From Peribacillus loiseleuriae (GTDB lineage: Bacteria > Bacillota > Bacilli > Bacillales > DSM-1321), in NCBI RefSeq assembly GCF_001183985.1, contig NZ_LFZW01000001.1:4020059-4084058 (forward strand): a stretch of DNA of 64,000 bases. The letters are read 5' to 3'. This document shows, in pieces, positions 35,780 to 44,086 of the stretch. Both the position numbers and the translations under genes were made by a program. Below the pieces are notes generated by a model that saw only the letters and a program-made list of their open reading frames with translations, did not search any database and was not told the DNA's origin. Every line of letters begins with the position of its first letter. Positions within the stretch are counted from its first letter, which is position 1.

Positions 35780-36433
35780 TCATTTTTTTATTGATAGTAC
35801 ATTTGTTACAAGTTGTACAGCAATCGCGTCGTCTAAATAGCCAATCGGAAATATGTAATCCGGAATGACATCTACTGGTAAAATGAAGTATAGGAGCGCA
35901 CTTCCAATTAAGGCAAGTTCACCTGGTGTTCCTTTCATCAAACGAAATTTCTCATACATATCCTTTAACCGATTAATAAACGGACCGATGCTCCCTACTT
36001 TTTGAAGCTTCTCTCCAAAGCTATTAAGAATGGTTTCCTTCCCTTCCTCTGTTTGTGTATATTGTTCATAACTAGCTAATTTCTGTTCCACACTTGTTAT
36101 CGTAAAATTTTTCATATCGATATTCGAGGATTCAAGAAGATTTTGTATGCTGTTAACAGACCTCTGAATATCTGAATCTAGCTTTTCCTGCTTCGGCTTC
36201 TGTTCAATATCATAACCAGCCGCTACAAATAATTCTGCGGTAGGCATACCAAGACTGTGAGCAAATTTTTGTAAGTGCTCGGGATTGGCTTTTCTTTTAC
36301 CATTTATGATCCGCGAGATCGTAGCCGTATCGATTCCAGTGAGCTCACTGAGTTTGCGCATGGATAATGACCGTTCCTTCAAGATTCCTTTTAACACCGA
36401 ACCAAGATTACTTTTGCTCATTTCTTCAAACAT
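35780..36433 (-). CDS. XRE-type HTH protein with C-terminal DUF1232 membrane domain
   Basis: A 217-residue protein. The HTH_3 at ~18-72 (LSMRKLSELTGIDTATISRII) is followed by a helical middle and a DUF1232-like end: LALIGSALLYFILPVDVIPDY, FPIGYLDDAIAVQLV. DUF1232 supplies a small membrane-embedded helical hairpin, so this is a membrane-tethered DNA-binding protein. GGAGGATTAGT precedes the ATG. A ~50% similar paralogue in opposite orientation lies beyond ytaF at 37937-38599, pointing to local duplication. Target unknown. Confidence 0.82.
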   Translation of the reverse strand: MFEEMSKSNLGSVLKGILKERSLSMRKLSELTGIDTATISRIINGKRKANPEHLQKFAHSLGMPTAELFVAAGYDIEQKPKQEKLDSDIQRSVNSIQNLLESSNIDMKNFTITSVEQKLASYEQYTQTEEGKETILNSFGEKLQKVGSIGPFINRLKDMYEKFRLMKGTPGELALIGSALLYFILPVDVIPDYIFPIGYLDDAIAVQLVTNVLSIKK

Positions 36434-36547
36434 ACTAATCCTCCTTTCTATAATCTATTAAACAACGTGAATGGTTTTAGTTAAAATAAAAACACTCCCT
36501 ATTCCCATACATAACATAGATAGAAGTTTTTGAGTTCATATTTTCTG

Positions 36548-36620
36548 AAGTAAACCTTTTTCATCTTACGATTAGCATCAGATGCTCATCGTTTTTTTAT
36601 ATAACCACCGGGGCGGTGCG
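36548..36620. repeat. Family-B repeat, partial copy
   Basis: Read on the minus strand: GATGAGCATCTGATGCTAAT, then AAGATGAAAAAGGTTTACTTC, with CGCACCGCCCC on the far side. The order of the blocks differs from the other copies because the GGCGGT block precedes, rather than follows, the ATGAAAAAG block. Confidence 0.5.
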
Positions 36621-36921
36621 AATATGTAGGAATTACAGATAATAAAGAAATGATTTAGGAAAATCGTCCAACATCTATATTTAGTGAACTACGTTATCGA
36701 ACTCTGACTAACATAGCCATGTAGTTAGAAAAGTACGTGCTAATAGGAAATATACATGCGCGTTGACGTTTTGTCAACGTTCGTGAATGATCTTGTCAAA
36801 TATAGTCATATTCTGTTATTAAATCCCTCCATTATTCCCCAATATTTATATTAGAAAAACACGCTCCGCATTTCCACTTGGCATACTGCATATTGATTTA
36901 TCGTATTATAAAGTAACATCC

Positions 36922-37086
36922 ATTTATCCCGGTTTAACAGGCTGTAATACCCCCACCTCAATTTTTGTGAGAGAATCAAGAAAAAGTAGGTGGAGGATAA
37001 ACAGCCTGTAAATCCCCGATTGGTTCAACTAACCATCAGTGGGGATGAAGAACCCCCCCATTGATGGTTAGTTTCACTTTATGTAA
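36922..37086. repeat. Family-C repeat, full copy (~160 bp)
   Basis: Blocks in order: ATCCCGGTTTAACAGGCTG, CCCCACCTCAATTTTTGTGA, GGTGGAGGATAAACAGCCTG, AATCCCCGATTGGTTCAACT, AACCATCAGTGGGGATGAAG and TTGATGGTTAGTTTCACTTT. CCATCAGTGGGG and CCCCCCATTGATGG are near inverted repeats. The whole is matched at 63391-63541 in the opposite orientation. Confidence 0.65.
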
Positions 37087-37177
37087 AGGGGCGTGTGAGT
37101 TTATTGATCACTCTGTCTTTTCTTTCACTAAGACATTTTTCTTAAACTTCACAGCTCCTGATGAACATCTGCCTACA

Positions 37178-37810
37178 TTAAAAGAATGCTGTAAATGCAA
37201 GCACTAAGATAATGATTCCACTCAAGATGGTTCCAAATTGACCTAAAGTAAATGAACCAATCCGGACATCTGCCAATTTGTACCCTAACTTCACACCTAT
37301 CCACACGCTGATGAAACTACCAATTGCAGCTGTTAAGGAAATAGCAAGCGGTGAAAATCCAAGTAAACCAGCACCTAAACCATTCGTCAGTGCATTGGCG
37401 GATAATGCAACACCAAGAACCACAGCTTCGCCCCAACCAATTGCTCCAGACTGATCGAGATCAGCCACTTCAGGATTTTCTAAAATACCTTTTATACTTT
37501 TTGACTGTGTATTTGAATCTTGAACGACTTGTGATTTTTCTTTTTTACGAGGGGTGGCCAAAAGAATGATTCGAACCCCAATAATGACTAATAAAAGGGC
37601 TCCAATAATAACTGGGAACATACCTGGAAGGATCTGGGAGAGCCACATTCCAAATGTAATTCCTGTTATACTCATAAGAAAACAAATCACAGCGATTAAT
37701 ACATTAGCACCAATCCCAACCCGGATCTTGCGAATCCCATAAGAAATTCCTACTCCTAAATTATCTATACTTGATGAAACGGCAAAAGCCAAAATGATTA
37801 GCCAAGACAA
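37178..37810 (-). CDS. ytaF: Sporulation membrane protein YtaF
   Basis: A 210-residue membrane protein with six helices. The entry helix WLIILAFAVSSSIDNLGVGI and the repeat GVALSANALTNGLGAGLLG are the paired transport-like motifs of the MntP/YtaF group. In B. subtilis YtaF is a sporulation membrane protein. The start TTG at 37808-37810, with AGGAG ten bases upstream, gives nearly the B. subtilis length. The open frame runs 17 residues further upstream. The possible substrate (a divalent cation) is inferred from the family. Confidence 0.87.
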   Translation of the reverse strand: MSWLIILAFAVSSSIDNLGVGISYGIRKIRVGIGANVLIAVICFLMSITGITFGMWLSQILPGMFPVIIGALLLVIIGVRIILLATPRKKEKSQVVQDSNTQSKSIKGILENPEVADLDQSGAIGWGEAVVLGVALSANALTNGLGAGLLGFSPLAISLTAAIGSFISVWIGVKLGYKLADVRIGSFTLGQFGTILSGIIILVLAFTAFF

Positions 37811-37936
37811 TGTCGAAACACTCCTTATTCTTTTTTTACATTGTATTGTTCGAATTGACAAAAAGTGCTTGTTCCTCTCAAAACTGTTGAGAAAAAATCA
37901 ACACTTCATTAAAAATTCATAAAGGAGTGAAAAGTG

Positions 37937-38599
37937 ATGTCGATGAAGAATGAAGAAGAGCGAAATCTTGGTTCCTTGATCAAAACATTGTTAAGGACGC
38001 GCTCCCTTTCCATGCGTAAGCTAAGTATGTTAACCGGTATTGATACCGCGACCATATCCCGAATAGCCAATAATAAACAAAAAGCAAAGCCATCGCATTT
38101 ACAACTGTTCGCTCATCATTTAGGCATTCCTTTAGCCAAATTCATTCAGGCGGCTGGTTACGATGTTGAACTACATGAAAAGAACGCTACTTCAGATTTA
38201 TCTATTTCGATCGAAACGATCCAAGAAATTCTTGTCTCGGCTAATCATTTAGAACATCAATTTAACCTAGAGCAAATTCATCATGAATTAACGAAGTATG
38301 AACAATTTGCTCTTACAAAAGAAGGGGAGCATAAGATTTTGGATGAGTTTGAACAAAAGGTCGATCAAGTTAGAGGGGCAGGTCCGTTTATTAATGAATT
38401 AAACAAGATGTACAACAGGTATTTGGAAGAAAATATCTCATCAGAAGAGCGTACAATCCTTGGTAGTGTTCTTTTATATTTTATTTTATCCACTGATATT
38501 ATCCCCGATTACGTGTTTCCATTTGGTTATTTGGACGATTGCTTAGTCGTTCAAATCGGCTTGGGTCGACTGGCGAAATTGGATCATAAACATCCATGA
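37937..38599 (+). CDS. XRE-type HTH protein with DUF1232 domain, paralogue
   Basis: A 220-residue paralogue of the protein at 35780-36433. The HTH has LSMRKLSMLTGIDTATISRIA and the tail has LGSVLLYFILSTDIIPDYVF, FGYLDDCLVVQIGLG. The ATG at 37937-37939 is used because GGAG lies 9 bases upstream; a GTG one codon earlier is open too. It reads away from ytaF and is followed by a family-B repeat. Membrane-tethered regulation is inferred. Confidence 0.8.
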   Translation: MSMKNEEERNLGSLIKTLLRTRSLSMRKLSMLTGIDTATISRIANNKQKAKPSHLQLFAHHLGIPLAKFIQAAGYDVELHEKNATSDLSISIETIQEILVSANHLEHQFNLEQIHHELTKYEQFALTKEGEHKILDEFEQKVDQVRGAGPFINELNKMYNRYLEENISSEERTILGSVLLYFILSTDIIPDYVFPFGYLDDCLVVQIGLGRLAKLDHKHP

Positions 38600-38710
38600 G
38601 CATCTGGTCCCAACTAAAACGATGAAAAAGATTCAGGTTCTAAAAATTGCATCTCCTTATGAAAGTGGCGGTACGGTACTGTTCTTTTGCAAAGCCCCGC
38701 CACTTTTCCC
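38594..38710. repeat. Family-B repeat, full copy
   Basis: CATGAGCATCTGG, ACTAAAACGATGAAAAAGAT, TCAGGTT, CCTTATGAAAGTGGCGGTAC, TTTTGCAAAGCCCCGCCAC. The GTGGCGG and CCGCCAC arms form a hairpin. It begins inside the last codons of the XRE-DUF1232 gene, so the element contributes the stop region. Confidence 0.6.
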
Positions 38711-38777
38711 CCAAAAAGAATGAGAACGACCTGATCCCTGCTGCAAGTAAGGGGGGAACCAGGCAGATTTAATACAT

Positions 38778-40124
38778 CTATTGGAGCTGAAGTACAATCT
38801 TTGCCATCGTAAAATAAATGATTAGACCTGTTCCATCAACTAAGGTCGTAATAAAGGGCCCGGAAACGATCGCTGGATCGACTCTTAACTTATGCAAAAT
38901 TAACGGTAAAACAGCAGCAACCATCGACGCCCAAATCACAATAAATAGAGCGGACACTGCGACAACAAGCCCTATATTCATACTGACACCAAGTAAATAG
39001 GCACGAAAGAGTACAACAATTCCCATAGTTATCCCTAGAAAAAGCCCTGTAGATACTTCCCTTCTAAAAACCTTGAACATATCCTTAAATTGCACTTCCC
39101 CAACCGCTAGTGCCCGAACTAATGTCGTGACCGTTTGAGAGCCCGTATTCCCACCAGTCCCAATCAAAAGCGGAACAAAAAAGGCTAAGGCAATTTGCTG
39201 TGAGAGTGTGTCTTCATAATGCCGCAGTACATTACTTGTATAGGCTTCCGCAACAAATAAGATCAATAACCAGCCAATTCTCTTTTTAAAAAGGCTCCAA
39301 ATGGAGTTTTTAAAATAGGGCTCATCTAAAGGCTGACTGCCCCCCAGCTTTTGAAAGTCTTCTGTTGCTTCTTCATGAATGACATCAATTAGATCATCAA
39401 CAGTTATAATGCCAATCATTCTTTGATCTTTGGCAACCACAGGAATGGCGACAAAATTGTATTTTGACAAGACATCAGCTGCTTCTTGTTGATGCATATC
39501 TACGGTAACCGAAATGGGCTCTCCTTGAAGAATTTCTTCTAACCTTGTTCCTGTTTTCGCTAATATAATTTCCTTCAACGATACAATGCCAACAAGTTCT
39601 CCATGGCTTCCTAACACATAAATATATGAAACGATCTCAGCTCCATGTCCCACTTTCCTTACGTGTTGCAAAGCTTGCTCGACCGTCCAGCTAATGCGTG
39701 CGGCAATATAATCGACTGTCGCTAATCTCCCGGCTGTATTCGGCTCATAATTCATCAGCGTATTAATTTTTCTCCTATAGTTTTCTGATAAAAACGCCAT
39801 CAACTTTTTTGCTTGATGAGGATGAATCGATAACAGTAAATTAACAACAGTATCACTTGACATTTCATTTAACAACGCAGATGTAAAACCATCCTTGATT
39901 CGATGTAAAATTACATACAGCAATTCTGGCTCTAAGTATTCAAGGATTTCAGTTGCGAGTGGTTTAGGACATATTATAATAAACGTTAATTGTTCTTCCT
40001 GTTCAAGTTCACTTAACATTGTCGCAATATCAAAAGGCTGAAAACGAGATAGAAAATCCATTAAAGATTGTTGATTTTGTTCCTGTAAAATTATTTTTAT
40101 TTCCTGAATCATGTTTTGATCCAT
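38778..40124 (-). CDS. mgtE: Mg2+ transporter MgtE
   Basis: A 448-residue channel with the standard architecture: an N-domain of superhelical repeats (IKIILQEQNQQSLMDFLSRF), two CBS domains (~130-255, including IIGIITVDDLIDVIHEEATED) that gate by Mg2+, and five C-terminal TM helices with FFVPLLIGTGGNTGSQTVT as the pore. The length matches B. subtilis MgtE. The ATG at 40122-40124 follows GGGGGT seven bases upstream. An M-box riboswitch with a terminator lies immediately upstream, so expression should fall when Mg2+ is plentiful. Confidence 0.94.
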   Translation of the reverse strand: MDQNMIQEIKIILQEQNQQSLMDFLSRFQPFDIATMLSELEQEEQLTFIIICPKPLATEILEYLEPELLYVILHRIKDGFTSALLNEMSSDTVVNLLLSIHPHQAKKLMAFLSENYRRKINTLMNYEPNTAGRLATVDYIAARISWTVEQALQHVRKVGHGAEIVSYIYVLGSHGELVGIVSLKEIILAKTGTRLEEILQGEPISVTVDMHQQEAADVLSKYNFVAIPVVAKDQRMIGIITVDDLIDVIHEEATEDFQKLGGSQPLDEPYFKNSIWSLFKKRIGWLLILFVAEAYTSNVLRHYEDTLSQQIALAFFVPLLIGTGGNTGSQTVTTLVRALAVGEVQFKDMFKVFRREVSTGLFLGITMGIVVLFRAYLLGVSMNIGLVVAVSALFIVIWASMVAAVLPLILHKLRVDPAIVSGPFITTLVDGTGLIIYFTMAKIVLQLQ

Positions 40125-40334
40125 CGTCATTACCCCCAATCAAATCATTGTAAAAAGGGCTATAGGATCGAATTTTTCAGTGAATCGATAGACGATGACT
40201 GAAATGTCACCCTACTTCCTCTTTTACCTTTTTTACCTATCACTTTCGAACTGGGTTCTCCGTCCATCTTCATCACCTCCATGAATATGAAAAATAGGTT
40301 GCTAACTTGTAAGAGATAAATTATTAACATAATT

Positions 40335-40606
40335 AAAAAAGCCTTTATTTCCAAAAAAGAGGAAATGAAGGCTTGGTTTTCGCATCAAATAAACCGTATA
40401 AGCTGTTCAAAACAAATAACGAACATAGCATAATTCGGTGTTTACCAGTTTCCCTCGTTTTAGTTTTAGCACTGTATAGCATAGGTCTATTACCAGCTAC
40501 ATTAAAAAAGACCTTATTCCGATCTTTCCTGTTGACCCATTGGCGTCTCTCGACATTTCTGGGCAGCAGCGTTTCTCTATACAGGAGCCTCACCTAACAG
40601 AATCCT
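40335..40606 (-). promoter_or_regulatory. M-box (Mg2+) riboswitch of mgtE with terminator
   Basis: On the minus strand the aptamer (40494-40604) has the hallmark blocks GTTAGGTGAGGCTCCTGTAT, ACGCTGCTGCCCAGAAATG, TCGAGAGACGCCAATGGGTC and AACAGGAAAGATCGGAATAA. This matches the M-box/ykoK class closely. The expression platform ends in a terminator: AGCCTTCATTTCCTC pairing with GGAAATAAAGGCTTTTTTA at 40337-40375. mgtE starts ~210 bases further on. Confidence 0.93.
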
Positions 40607-40685
40607 TATAATACTATTAAACTTTAATCAATATATGGCAACTTTGACAAAATGTCAACAGTTCATGCAAATTTTTTTAATGGAC

Positions 40686-41879
40686 TCACAGATTTGAATC
40701 CCTACTGAACATATATTTTTTTGATCGTATGTTCACACTTAATACTAATCCTAATGCAATCATATTCGTTAATAGCGCACTTCCTCCATAACTCAAAAGC
40801 GGCAGAGCAATTCCAGTAACCGGCATTAAACCAATGGTCATCGATATATTTTGAAAGATTTGGAAAGTGATTAGCCCTATAACTCCAGCACAAATATATG
40901 TACCAAACAGATGATTGGAATTAAAAGCAATAACCGTTATTCGGTAAATAAGAATAAAATATAAACTTATTAAAATAGATGAGCCAATAAAACCAAATTC
41001 CTCCCCAACGACAGAGAAAATAAAATCCGTATGTGCTTCAGGTATTTTACCGCTTTGGACTTGCGTTCCCTGATTAAATCCACTTCCAGCCATACGTCCA
41101 GAGCCAATTCCCAAAATGGCTTGAGTTAGTTGATAGCCATAACTTGAAGCAAACTCTTCTGGACTCAGCCAGCCATAGATTCTTTCCAATTGATGGGGCT
41201 TAATAGCTTTTGAAAAAATGTCGAAAAAATGGTTGTGTAAATAGACGAGAAAGCCAATTAAAGCTGTAAAACAAGACGCCAAGAGAGCAATCATTTTGAA
41301 TGAGACTCCTGATGCAATAATTAAACTAAATGTGATGGCAGCAATGACAAGTGCTGAACCTAGATCAGGCTGGACCAATATTAAATAGAACGGAATCATC
41401 ATGAGGATGACAACTCTTATCGTAATGAGAATGCTTTGTTTGAAAGTAAGATTCCGATTGGCAAGCCGTTGTAAAATGGTTGCTAAATAGATGATTAAAA
41501 ACACCTTCATAAACTCTGATGGCTGTAATTCAAAAAAGCCAAAGCTAATCCATCTTGTAGCCCCATTTTTAAACGTTCCAAACATGTGAACGAGAAGTAA
41601 TAAACCAATCCCTATAAAATAAAGTGGAGCTGCCAATCTTTCTAGCAATTCAAAATCAAATTTCGCTACCGCGACCATTACCACTGTGCCGATGACATAC
41701 CAAATTACTTGTCTTTTTACAAAATAAAAAGGATCCTGGGTTTCATACTGGCCTGATCCACTGTAAACAGCTAGTAAGCTATAAATAAATAGACAGAATA
41801 AAGTAAATAACAATAGATAATCAAGCTGTTGTTCATGTTTCTTCAATAAATTTTCACCACTCCATTTGTTTTTCATCAT
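40686..41879 (-). CDS. FtsW/RodA-family peptidoglycan polymerase (SEDS)
   Basis: A 397-residue SEDS protein with ~10 TM helices, which polymerises lipid II with a class B PBP. Signatures are PSEFMKVFLIIYLA, QPDLGSALVIAAI, GSGRMAGSGFNQGTQVQSGKIPEAHTDFIF and GEEFGFIGSS; the closest type is RodA. I start at the ATG at 41877-41879, because the open frame's extra 43 residues (MIARLSLVIHIF) are not family-like and AAAGGAAATT lies near this ATG. An M-box plus terminator lies upstream, and mgtE lies downstream in the same direction. Mg2+ control of a wall polymerase is inferred from this layout. Confidence 0.9.
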   Translation of the reverse strand: MMKNKWSGENLLKKHEQQLDYLLLFTLFCLFIYSLLAVYSGSGQYETQDPFYFVKRQVIWYVIGTVVMVAVAKFDFELLERLAAPLYFIGIGLLLLVHMFGTFKNGATRWISFGFFELQPSEFMKVFLIIYLATILQRLANRNLTFKQSILITIRVVILMMIPFYLILVQPDLGSALVIAAITFSLIIASGVSFKMIALLASCFTALIGFLVYLHNHFFDIFSKAIKPHQLERIYGWLSPEEFASSYGYQLTQAILGIGSGRMAGSGFNQGTQVQSGKIPEAHTDFIFSVVGEEFGFIGSSILISLYFILIYRITVIAFNSNHLFGTYICAGVIGLITFQIFQNISMTIGLMPVTGIALPLLSYGGSALLTNMIALGLVLSVNIRSKKYMFSRDSNL

Positions 41880-41951
41880 AAGGATGAATTTCCTTTGTTC
41901 ATAAATACCCAAAAATCGGTAAAGTACGCATAACTCTAGATAATTGAAACA

Positions 41952-42210
41952 TAAAAAATACACGATCTTGTGAAAGATGTGTATAACAAGACTAAGCCTG
42001 GCAATCAATTAAGTTAGAGATTGATGAATAATGCGTCCATACAATCCTTCAATCGTTTAAGCTTTAACACTACTGCAAAGGATTTTTAAAGCTACATGAA
42101 ACACAAACGACCTTATGTCGATGGTTCCTGTTGACCCATCGGTGTCTTTGGCCGTTTCAGAGCAGCAGATCTCCAGCATAGAAGCCTCACATAACAAGAA
42201 TAATAATCTA
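41952..42210 (-). promoter_or_regulatory. Second M-box riboswitch, upstream of the rodA-like gene
   Basis: Aptamer blocks on the minus strand (42092-42205): TTATGTGAGGCTTCTATGCT, ATCTGCTGCTCTGAAACGG, CCAAAGACACCGATGGGTC, AACAGGAACCATCGACATAA. They align block by block with the mgtE copy and with the M-box class. An intrinsic terminator follows at 41952-41986: ATACACATCTT pairs with AAGATCGTGTAT, then TTTTT. The terminator is ~75 bases before the rodA-like start. This is the arrangement of a Mg2+-off switch. Confidence 0.85.
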
Positions 42211-42401
42211 TTCACTAATCAACTACATCGTAAATGTTCGGGCAGAGGTTGTCAATATTAATTAAAAGTAGATGATCACTAAAAACACAATAAAAAAACG
42301 AGGATTGAAAGAGTTATTATTGAATCATTTTTTTGGCACATAACACGCTTTTTGTGAAAAAATAACTCACAAACGTCCATCTGACATGAAACTCAACTTT
42401 T

Positions 42402-42455: not shown

Positions 42456-43670
42456 TTAATGATTTAATCCATTTATTAAAGTTGTAGGCTGTCTTTTCTT
42501 AAGACTAAGCATCACAACAAAAGAGATGATATATAAGACTGCTAAATAAGTCATAGCTACTGTCATATCATAGCTTTGTAGAATATAACCAACGAGGATT
42601 GGTGATAGTCCACCTATCGCTCTTCCAAAGTTAAATATTGTGTTGGTAGCTGTACTTCTAATTTGAACAGGATAATAACTGCTGATCAAGGCTCCATATC
42701 CGGCAAACATCCCATTGGAAAAGAAGCCGACAATAGCACCACCGATTAATACCCCTGCACTGCCTTCTGCATACGAGTATAGAAATACAGCACATGCGGA
42801 GGCAAGAAGGAAAATACCAAAGGCTCGTTTCGCTCCAATTCGATCCATGAATTGTCCAAAGGTTAACATCCCAATGATCATGCCAACTGCTGTACTGATT
42901 GTCCAAAGGGCTGAGCTTGAAACAGATAGGCCTTGAGATTGTTGCAGCATGGATGGCAACCAAATCATTAAACCATTGTAGCCTGCAATCTGCACCGTTG
43001 CCATAATTGCTAGGGAGATCGTCGTCATCGTTGTTCTAGGTGTTTCAAATAATTGAAGCAGTTTGCCTTTCTCTTGTTTGCTGACGAACTTTTTCTGTTT
43101 TTGAGCTTCCATCCATTCAGGAGATTCATCTAGGTTCTTCCTCACAATAAAAGCAAATATAACTGGAAGGACACCAACGAAGAACAATGCGCGCCACCCC
43201 AAGGTAGGCAGAATGATGGCGCTAAGCAATGCTGCGAGAATGACACCATATTGAGCCCCAATACTTACATAAGAAGAAGCTCGTCCTTGTTTATTTTTTG
43301 GCCACGCCTCACTAACAAGAGCCATCCCAATCCCATACTCTCCTCCTGCACCCAATCCAGCGATAAATCTAAACACGTACACCTGCTCGATATTTGTAGC
43401 TAGTCCTGTTAAAGCTGTACCTATAGCGAACAATATAATCGTATAGGTAAAAATTCGCACCCGGCCAAACTTATCTGCCAAGATTCCGAAGATAATCCCG
43501 CCAGCAAGCATGCCGATATTCGTTATGGAAGAAATAAGCCCTCCCGTTGCTAAATCAATGTGAAACTCTGCAATAATCATTGACATGGCAAAAGAGATAA
43601 ACATGATGTCCATGCCTTCTAACGTTAAACCCGCTACTGACGCTACAACTGTTTTATTACGATAATTCAT
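42456..43670 (-). CDS. MFS transporter (AAHS-like, 12 TM)
   Basis: A 404-residue major facilitator with the motif GILADKFGRVRIF in loop 2-3 and FGQFMDRIGAKRAF in loop 8-9, plus FRFIAGLGAGGEYGIGMALV. These resemble the aromatic acid:H+ symporter and related sugar-acid groups. The substrate cannot be told from sequence. Start MNYRNKTVVASV at ATG, with weak purines upstream. Its leader has an attenuator-like structure ending at 43818-43857. No catabolic genes are adjacent. Confidence 0.85.
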   Translation of the reverse strand: MNYRNKTVVASVAGLTLEGMDIMFISFAMSMIIAEFHIDLATGGLISSITNIGMLAGGIIFGILADKFGRVRIFTYTIILFAIGTALTGLATNIEQVYVFRFIAGLGAGGEYGIGMALVSEAWPKNKQGRASSYVSIGAQYGVILAALLSAIILPTLGWRALFFVGVLPVIFAFIVRKNLDESPEWMEAQKQKKFVSKQEKGKLLQLFETPRTTMTTISLAIMATVQIAGYNGLMIWLPSMLQQSQGLSVSSSALWTISTAVGMIIGMLTFGQFMDRIGAKRAFGIFLLASACAVFLYSYAEGSAGVLIGGAIVGFFSNGMFAGYGALISSYYPVQIRSTATNTIFNFGRAIGGLSPILVGYILQSYDMTVAMTYLAVLYIISFVVMLSLKKRQPTTLINGLNH

Positions 43671-44086
43671 ATTGTTTTACCCTCCAGTTTATTCTTTTAG
43701 TAAAAAAACTTTTTATGCTTTGAGGGAATGGATATGCAATTGATCAATTACAAGAATATCTTCCATTCTCTTTTCAAGTCTCACAGGACTTTATTTAAAA
43801 GAGGTGCTATTCAAACAAAAATAAATGCCCTTCCGTCACAGAGGACAAAAGGGCATGAATGTACGTAGTTAGACTTAAAAATATAAGACTATCAAGCCAC
43901 CCTTTTCGGCCTCTCTGGACCGTATTAAAAGGAAATATTATATTGATATTTATATTATCAGGTTAGAAAGAAGGTTGCAATATTAATTGAATATGTGATT
44001 AAATATTTTTCATTGTAAAAATTACCTATAAATTCTGCCTTCTAGCTTAAATTCCACCAATTATTAGTAGCTAAATTATAAATCTT
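43671..44086. other. Leader region of the MFS gene with attenuator-like RNA
   Basis: No gene. On the minus strand the transcript would contain GGTCCAGAGAGGCCGAAAAG, GGTGGCTTGATAGTC and then a terminator ATGCCCTT(...)AAGGGCAT + TTATTTTT at 43818-43857, ~150 bases before the MFS start. GTCCTCTGTGAC in the terminator loop can instead pair with CAGAGAGG upstream, giving an antiterminator. I cannot name the class. Confidence 0.55.

Follow-up and report, generated by a model that had tools for sequence, protein, structure and literature searches.

According to PMC4072509, nearly all M-boxes precede corA, mgtA or mgtE, and Nramp-related genes form a further class of targets. The locus described here resembles the Bacillus subtilis mgtE/ykoK M-box (the ykoK leader, RF00380) in its aptamer family, in the order of promoter, aptamer and terminator, and in being presumed OFF at high Mg2+, but its target is a wall polymerase gene rather than a metal transporter and its aptamer is degenerate. 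The Mbox leaders of Mycobacterium tuberculosis are similar in that an M-box leader is followed by uORFs, the targets are non-canonical and mgtC is co-transcribed; there the targets are pe20 or rv1535 and the platform is translational and Rho-dependent, whereas the SEDS leaders reported here carry hairpin and T-run terminators (PMC12810186, available part). Accessory SEDS genes have also been described. The Listeria operon lmo2689-lmo2686 holds a Mg2+-type ATPase (lmo2689), FtsW2 and RodA3 (PMC6686043, accessible sections), and thus joins accessory SEDS genes to an MgtA-type gene; we find such a run behind a Listeria M-box, although there, unlike in our locus, mgtA lies between the M-box and the SEDS genes. 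Enterococcus faecalis likewise expresses an accessory SEDS pair conditionally, but under the two-component system CroS/R, and the word ‘magnesium’ does not occur in the accessible text of PMC12724132. We found no paper joining an M-box to RodA, FtsW or SEDS genes, which is weak evidence of absence as most subscription papers lay outside the search. Relief of wall-elongation defects by Mg2+ is an old laboratory fact on whose mechanism, to our knowledge, there is no agreement. Such Mg2+ rescue is described in the available portion of PMC7478892.

The window, by which we mean the whole 64,000-nucleotide stretch of Peribacillus loiseleuriae DNA that was analysed, yielded three Rfam matches by cmscan, two RF00380 M-boxes and one PyrR site, all on the minus strand. 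The first M-box (42040-42205, minus strand; 58.4 bits, E 4.4e-10, model positions 1-169) scores above the Rfam gathering cut-off of 44 bits. It is preceded, 21 nt upstream, by a sigma-A-like promoter read in the sequence as TTGACA-17-TACGAT (42227-42255, minus strand) and followed, in the gap before rodA, by an intrinsic terminator, a hairpin with a T-run seen in the sequence and in folds (41953-41984, minus strand). The terminator ends 73 nt short of ATG 41879, the likeliest start of rodA (40686-41879, minus strand; 397 aa, P0001), which encodes a RodA-type SEDS peptidoglycan polymerase by PF01098, TIGR02210 and phmmer. The first-pass annotation had placed an M-box ahead of a RodA/FtsW-family gene with a terminator of its own about 75 bases before the start codon, and both elements are borne out. 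It had put the aptamer at 42092-42205 and proposed an Rfam cmscan of that region; the M-box is indeed there and above threshold, but the full aptamer is longer, reaching down to 42040. The second M-box (40444-40608, minus strand; 151.1 bits, E 1.9e-34), also anticipated, heads a leader with a hairpin and T-run terminator (40335-40374, minus strand; sequence and folds) and lies upstream of mgtE (38778-40139, minus strand, ORF as listed, start uncertain), whose Mg2+ transporter product matches PF01769, PF03448 (MgtE_N) and PF00571 (CBS). Beyond mgtE lie a gene with HTH (Cro/C1-type) and DUF1232 domains (37934-38599, plus strand), a gene for the MntP-type membrane protein YtaF (37178-37861, minus strand; PF02659, and TIGR02840 above cut-off) and a second HTH and DUF1232 gene (35780-36433, minus strand). 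Relatives of the first HTH-DUF1232 gene adjoin RodA-type genes in other genera. The PyrR-binding leader (43817-43936, minus strand; 61.7 bits, cut-off 54) is upstream of an MFS transporter gene (42456-43670), with no evident pyrimidine gene. Paired M-boxes about 1.8 kb apart, like those of the window, occur in four other genomes (L188 in G157, L189 in G047, G196:C5 and G221:C31), and their downstream genes class as MgtE where examined.

Our preferred reading is that a sigma-A-like promoter and an M-box with its terminator control an accessory RodA-type SEDS gene that would be made when Mg2+ is scarce, and we give this a probability of roughly 0.62. At high cytoplasmic Mg2+ the aptamer would fold and transcription would end at the terminator, whereas a drop in Mg2+ would allow read-through and so supply an extra wall polymerase alongside MgtE, which could support wall synthesis under Mg2+ shortage. 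Both the Mg2+ response of the rodA leader and the role in wall synthesis are what we infer from this arrangement. The gene product matches PF01098 with 324.9 bits (cut-off 26.4) over profile positions 4-354 of 356 and exceeds the cut-off of the NCBIfam RodA equivalog TIGR02210 (360.8 vs 336.7 bits), while falling under those for FtsW (310.9 vs 337.5) and spoVE (245.5 vs 448.8). In a tree of 40 rows, RodA-side and FtsW-side rows part at 100/100, with the window protein on the RodA side. By phmmer its PEAHTDFIF motif aligns to PERHTDFIF and PFRHTDFVF in RodA/MrdB proteins of solved structure, and its Asp is what we take to be the catalytic aspartate. The genome holds six PF01098 matches in all. 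The gene is, as had been suggested, a rodA-like paralogue; it is one of several SEDS genes in the genome, and its product is a predicted glycosyltransferase.

The arrangement occurs twice in this genome. A block of HTH-DUF1232, YtaF, HTH-DUF1232, rodA and M-box is present in two copies about 130 kb apart (window 35780-42205 and L032:1139-5876). The genome (G000) yielded four M-boxes, two before mgtE genes and two before SEDS (rodA) paralogues. The second RodA (C1:4192387-4193562) is 89% identical to that of the window, and its aptamer scores 93.1 bits. Copy 2 retains the promoter and the terminator, the latter with 33/37 bases the same as in the window. In the window copy, and only there, mgtE and its M-box intervene between the HTH gene and rodA. 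Copy 2 has apparently lost its mgtE, since a 49-base M-box-like fragment (L032:4252-4300, nhmmer 26.5 bits) lies just downstream of its rodA, at the place of the window mgtE M-box. Between the copies rodA has dN 0.057 and dS 0.393 and is under purifying selection. A second M-box and rodA pair at another locus makes the pairing more than chance, and a chance M-box match is ruled out by copy 2 together with the repeats in other lineages. We also considered a plasmid or mobile origin and rejected it: the best plasmid matches to RodA are distant (40.7% identity for the first of the matches listed), one record of 225 falls in the 60-80% identity band, and the DNA shared with plasmids comprises only an IS3 transposase. 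Two relatives of the same genus carry parts of the arrangement. G029 has an orphan M-box leader (L030:2217-2372, 70 bits) that resembles the leader of rodA in copy 2 and is followed by neither a SEDS gene nor a matching terminator. G020 has a 76% identical RodA with a similar promoter and no M-box match; the pattern TTGACA-N17-TA[GT]GAT is found upstream of rodA both there and in copy 2.

The window rodA aptamer is the weakest example that we found, and copy 2 is the better case. Across 26 other M-boxes, including the genome’s two mgtE aptamers, we defined 102 near-invariant columns, of which 20 are altered in the window rodA aptamer, 11 in copy 2 and 17 in the G029 orphan (the mgtE aptamers show 0 by construction, both being among the 26). 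In the cmscan alignments the window rodA aptamer keeps 36/46 consensus pairs, copy 2 41/46 and the G029 orphan 35/46, against 45/46 for each of the mgtE aptamers. When the changes from copy 2 to the window were placed at random, a CM-guided count gave a mean of 27.2 pairs vs 36 kept (P 0.0004), so that the aptamer looked constrained in an alignment that is itself fitted to the structure. With an alignment made without CM guidance, the window keeps 25/41 of the copy-2 pairs, where random placement averages 27.0 (P 0.85); for the G029 orphan the figures are 37/41 and 33.7 (P 0.055). Because the unguided alignment failed to uphold it for the window copy, we do not rely on the CM-guided result. 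The two aptamers of the genome are identical at 121/161 positions (75%); between the same copies the figures are 102/134 for rodA fourfold sites and 442/577 and 61/79 for intergenic controls. Divergence of the window aptamer from its sister thus looks neutral, and the changes in its lineage show no avoidance of near-invariant columns. On whether the window aptamer still works the evidence points both ways and is mostly unfavourable: the leader descends from an M-box and retains its terminator, and it may be weakened or decaying. Given 36/46 pairs, 20/102 columns changed and fourfold-like divergence from the sister copy, expression when Mg2+ is scarce is likely for the family of SEDS-linked M-boxes and uncertain for the window copy.

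These data bring up the strongest competitor to our reading, namely that the aptamer in the window is a relic in decay: the M-box would have arrived with the locus and have served an ancestor, or would still serve the sister copy, with the window rodA now constitutive, silent or otherwise controlled. We regard this as a real though minority possibility, and it is compatible with our main explanation for the family as a whole. It would fit the aptamer's 58.4 bits, the poorest of the scores among the genome's four M-boxes, the changed near-invariant columns, the neutral-like divergence and the gene-less orphan leader of G029. Set against it are the conserved terminator, the intact and constrained rodA and the CM-guided pair count above random; copy 2 and the other lineages are unaffected by it. 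Folding adds a further point on the same side, as the P1 3' strand of the window leader can pair with the 5' arm of the terminator at -13.0 kcal/mol, matched in 2.3% of shuffles. For the same duplex the share of shuffles as good is 2.7% in G393, 7.4% (marginal) in G479 and 43% in copy 2. Equilibrium folding showed no switching: in five leaders, that of mgtE among them, the terminator arm stayed in the terminator at 0.88-0.99 whether or not the P1 strand was present, and G393 was the only one in which the value fell, from 0.22 to 0.01 on release of the P1 strand. We consider this test uninformative.

The first-pass annotation had suggested surveying M-box contexts for SEDS genes, and we found the pairing again at copy 2, in three genomes of another family (f58), in Paenibacillus tyrfis and in Listeria. 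M-box matches were found in 19/43 genomes of the family, 26/40 of a chosen set, 47/199 of the order, 87/250 of the class and 115/329 of the phylum, in overlapping samples whose matches were fetched only in part and, for searches of more than 40 genomes, with filters that miss weak matches. Among 271 loci examined, nhmmer matched an M-box in 261; the other ten (seven of family f72, L277-L283, plus L464, L467 and L469) contain no SEDS-like stretch. Removal of repeats left 228 M-box matches, a few of them fragments (e.g. L032), with at least 1 kb downstream in 225 and at least 3 kb in 93. A SEDS gene lies downstream of seven M-boxes: the window, copy 2, G393 (C207), G479, P. tyrfis, G379 and G393 (C104), the last two added after the automated pass had dropped them as repeats of shorter loci. 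Since P. tyrfis came from a search on the SEDS side, the rate on the M-box side is 6/~227, and SEDS-linked M-boxes are rare in this sample. SEDS genes further down are undercounted because most loci stop before the end of the 2.7 kb mgtA; extending twelve further M-box loci to 7-9 kb (L323-L334) revealed no SEDS gene. In six loci (L173, L199, L201, L239, L244 and L274) the M-box precedes a protein that resembles, by eye, a double ABC permease.

Full-strength aptamers are paired with SEDS genes in family f58 and in P. tyrfis. In G393 and G479, M-boxes of 152.2 and 149.3 bits are followed by a terminator, a uORF, a second terminator and the SEDS gene. G379 carries on one strand, with small gaps, an M-box of 155 bits, mgtA, mgtC, an MgtE_N/CBS gene, SEDS1 (FtsW-like) and SEDS2 (RodA-like), and P. 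tyrfis MSt1 has an M-box of 153.9 bits followed by mgtC, MgtE_N/CBS, SEDS1 and SEDS2. Other contigs of G393 hold an M-box with mgtA and SEDS1, and an M-box with mgtC and MgtE_N/CBS, with SEDS2 separate behind an M-box of its own; the components of the G379 run are therefore dispersed over three contigs in G393, each run with an M-box. Six leaders (three from G393 and one each from G379, G479 and P. tyrfis) align along their length and share one plan of aptamer, terminator, Shine-Dalgarno sequence, uORF of 41-53 codons beginning M[DE], and second hairpin with T-run, which makes the SEDS2 leader of G393 the same kind as the mgtA and mgtC leaders. The M-box stands directly before the SEDS gene, with no transporter gene between, in the Peribacillus genome (twice), G393 and G479. 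The six aligned leaders, L229, L245, L319, L320, L378 and L049, have two attenuators in tandem. Three M-box runs (L049:3069-3842, L319:5483-6256 and L378:1856-2626) encode a soluble MgtE_N and CBS protein that lacks the MgtE membrane part and may be a cytosolic Mg2+ sensor.

The first-pass annotation had proposed a direct genetic link between Mg2+ and wall growth from gene layout. The RodA-type paralogue, an M-box real by homology and its repeats at another locus and in other lineages partly sustain that proposal, while the degenerate window aptamer weakens it for this copy. The link exceeds an argument from layout because a second locus and further lineages show the arrangement too, and because the same pairing is seen in other bacterial lineages, Mg2+ shortage and wall growth may be linked through RNA. 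A known riboswitch class is found repeatedly with an unusual target, and the family rather than the window copy merits follow-up. A Mg2+ riboswitch on SEDS genes in several lineages would be a direct genetic link from Mg2+ status to wall growth that is open to testing, and the SEDS targets extend the M-box regulon past metal transport.

In a chromosome-size record of L. monocytogenes, a search with stricter filters found one M-box (153.3 bits). It heads an mgtA-like gene (52% to MgtA of G379) and a pair of SEDS genes with an overlap of four bases. The record is unlabelled there, and we match the run to lmo2689-ftsW2-rodA3 by the kind and order of its genes. The leader (L475:8163-8350) has, by eye, a short uORF (MDHHQ...) before mgtA. 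An M-box in L. monocytogenes, its gene not named, is recorded in the available part of the review PMC3179153; the term M-box is absent from the review PMC8079631, and the word ‘riboswitch’ from the main text of PMC6686043. Listeria is a model organism in which ftsW2 and rodA3 mutants exist (PMC6686043, accessible sections). Polymerase activity cannot be assumed for an accessory SEDS gene, given that the Listeria SEDS homologue Lmo0421 is reported to be without RodA/FtsW function (PMC6624303, available text). Plasmid SEDS loci of Listeria, Paenibacillus and Priestia have, by annotation, no adjoining Mg2+-transport gene; in that of Listeria a CorA-family gene lies about 5.7 kb away on the opposite strand.

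Listeria also supplies evidence for a second alternative, in which SEDS genes ride along in Mg2+ loci and answer mainly to wall stress, through CesR in Listeria and CroRS in Enterococcus, with Mg2+ control minor. In PMC6686043, ampicillin, penicillin, cefuroxime and moenomycin induce Plmo2689-lacZ, and neither MgSO4 nor EDTA alters its expression in BHI; the fusion may or may not include the leader. This is evidence against Mg2+ control under those conditions. CroS/R up-regulates the E. faecalis SEDS genes (PMC12724132, available part), and accessory pairs lie beside an HTH-DUF1232 gene or a two-component system in loci where we found no M-box. Against this stand the four cases in which SEDS lies immediately behind the M-box with no transporter between, in G000 (twice), G393 and G479, and we judge the alternative improbable. 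That the rodA-type M-box was retuned to another divalent metal such as Mn2+, as the YtaF/MntP-type gene in both block copies and the changed core positions might hint, seems very improbable, since full-strength leaders elsewhere accompany Mg2+ transport genes and, of two Nramp-linked M-boxes in the available part of PMC4072509, one is Mg2+-controlled and the other shows minor repression only.

We return to the reading in which the SEDS gene is made when Mg2+ is scarce, of which one extension can be offered tentatively. Low Mg2+ might trigger an isozyme swap, in which dedicated RodA/FtsW paralogues able to function with less Mg2+, or to save it, came under a Mg2+ riboswitch and evolved several times from different SEDS lineages. 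Zinc-starved cells exchange ribosomal proteins in an analogous way. Such a swap, if true, could be one genetic basis of the relief of wall-elongation defects by Mg2+.

The M-box/SEDS link probably arose at least twice, as trees separate the M-box-linked SEDS proteins and the relatives in the window clade that were examined outside this genome lack a nearby M-box. In the 40-row tree, window RodA falls in a clade of seven together with RodA2-type genes of Bacillus spizizenii and others of the order (100/99), and SEDS2 of f58 and P. tyrfis in a separate clade of ten (100/100). Listeria RodA3 lies outside both of these clades and Listeria FtsW2 clusters with FtsW1 of Listeria and the FtsW-like gene of the window genome (99/96), placements that are unsure as the Listeria rows have long branches; SEDS1 of f58 groups with other f58 genes (100/99). 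A tree of 122 rows without Listeria again sets window RodA apart from SEDS2 of f58 and P. tyrfis. By tree placement, three origins are probable. About 60 matches to window RodA at 51% identity or more were listed. Part of the carriers, 40 further genomes, were searched for M-boxes, and none has one within 10 kb of the gene; nor did nhmmer match an M-box in 29 loci (L115-L143). These results, with no M-box match in G020, rule out an ancient conserved pairing with the window RodA type.

SEDS genes also neighbor Mg2+ genes where no M-box was seen. Among 80 SEDS loci of 7-11 kb, MgtE or MgtC/MgtE_N-CBS occurs in seven (L041, L042, L044, L045, L048, L049 and L072) and CorA in one further locus (L081). 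Neither L041, L042, L044, L045 and L048 nor five SEDS2 loci (L365-L369) yielded an M-box by cmscan. In six of the loci (L041, L042, L044, L045, L048 and L072) mgtE adjoins a RodA-type gene with no M-box seen nearby. In G363, SEDS1 adjoins MgtE and SEDS2 adjoins a gene that is BcrC-like by eye. HTH-DUF1232 genes are found in only part of the loci, and we reject them as a required partner. An accessory pair of RodA-like and FtsW-like genes adjoins an HTH-DUF1232 gene in Bacillus spizizenii TU-B-10 (L035:4365-7324) and in L118, L119, L116, L037 and L138, and SEDS pairs beside HTH-DUF1232 genes are common among RodA2-type loci of the order.
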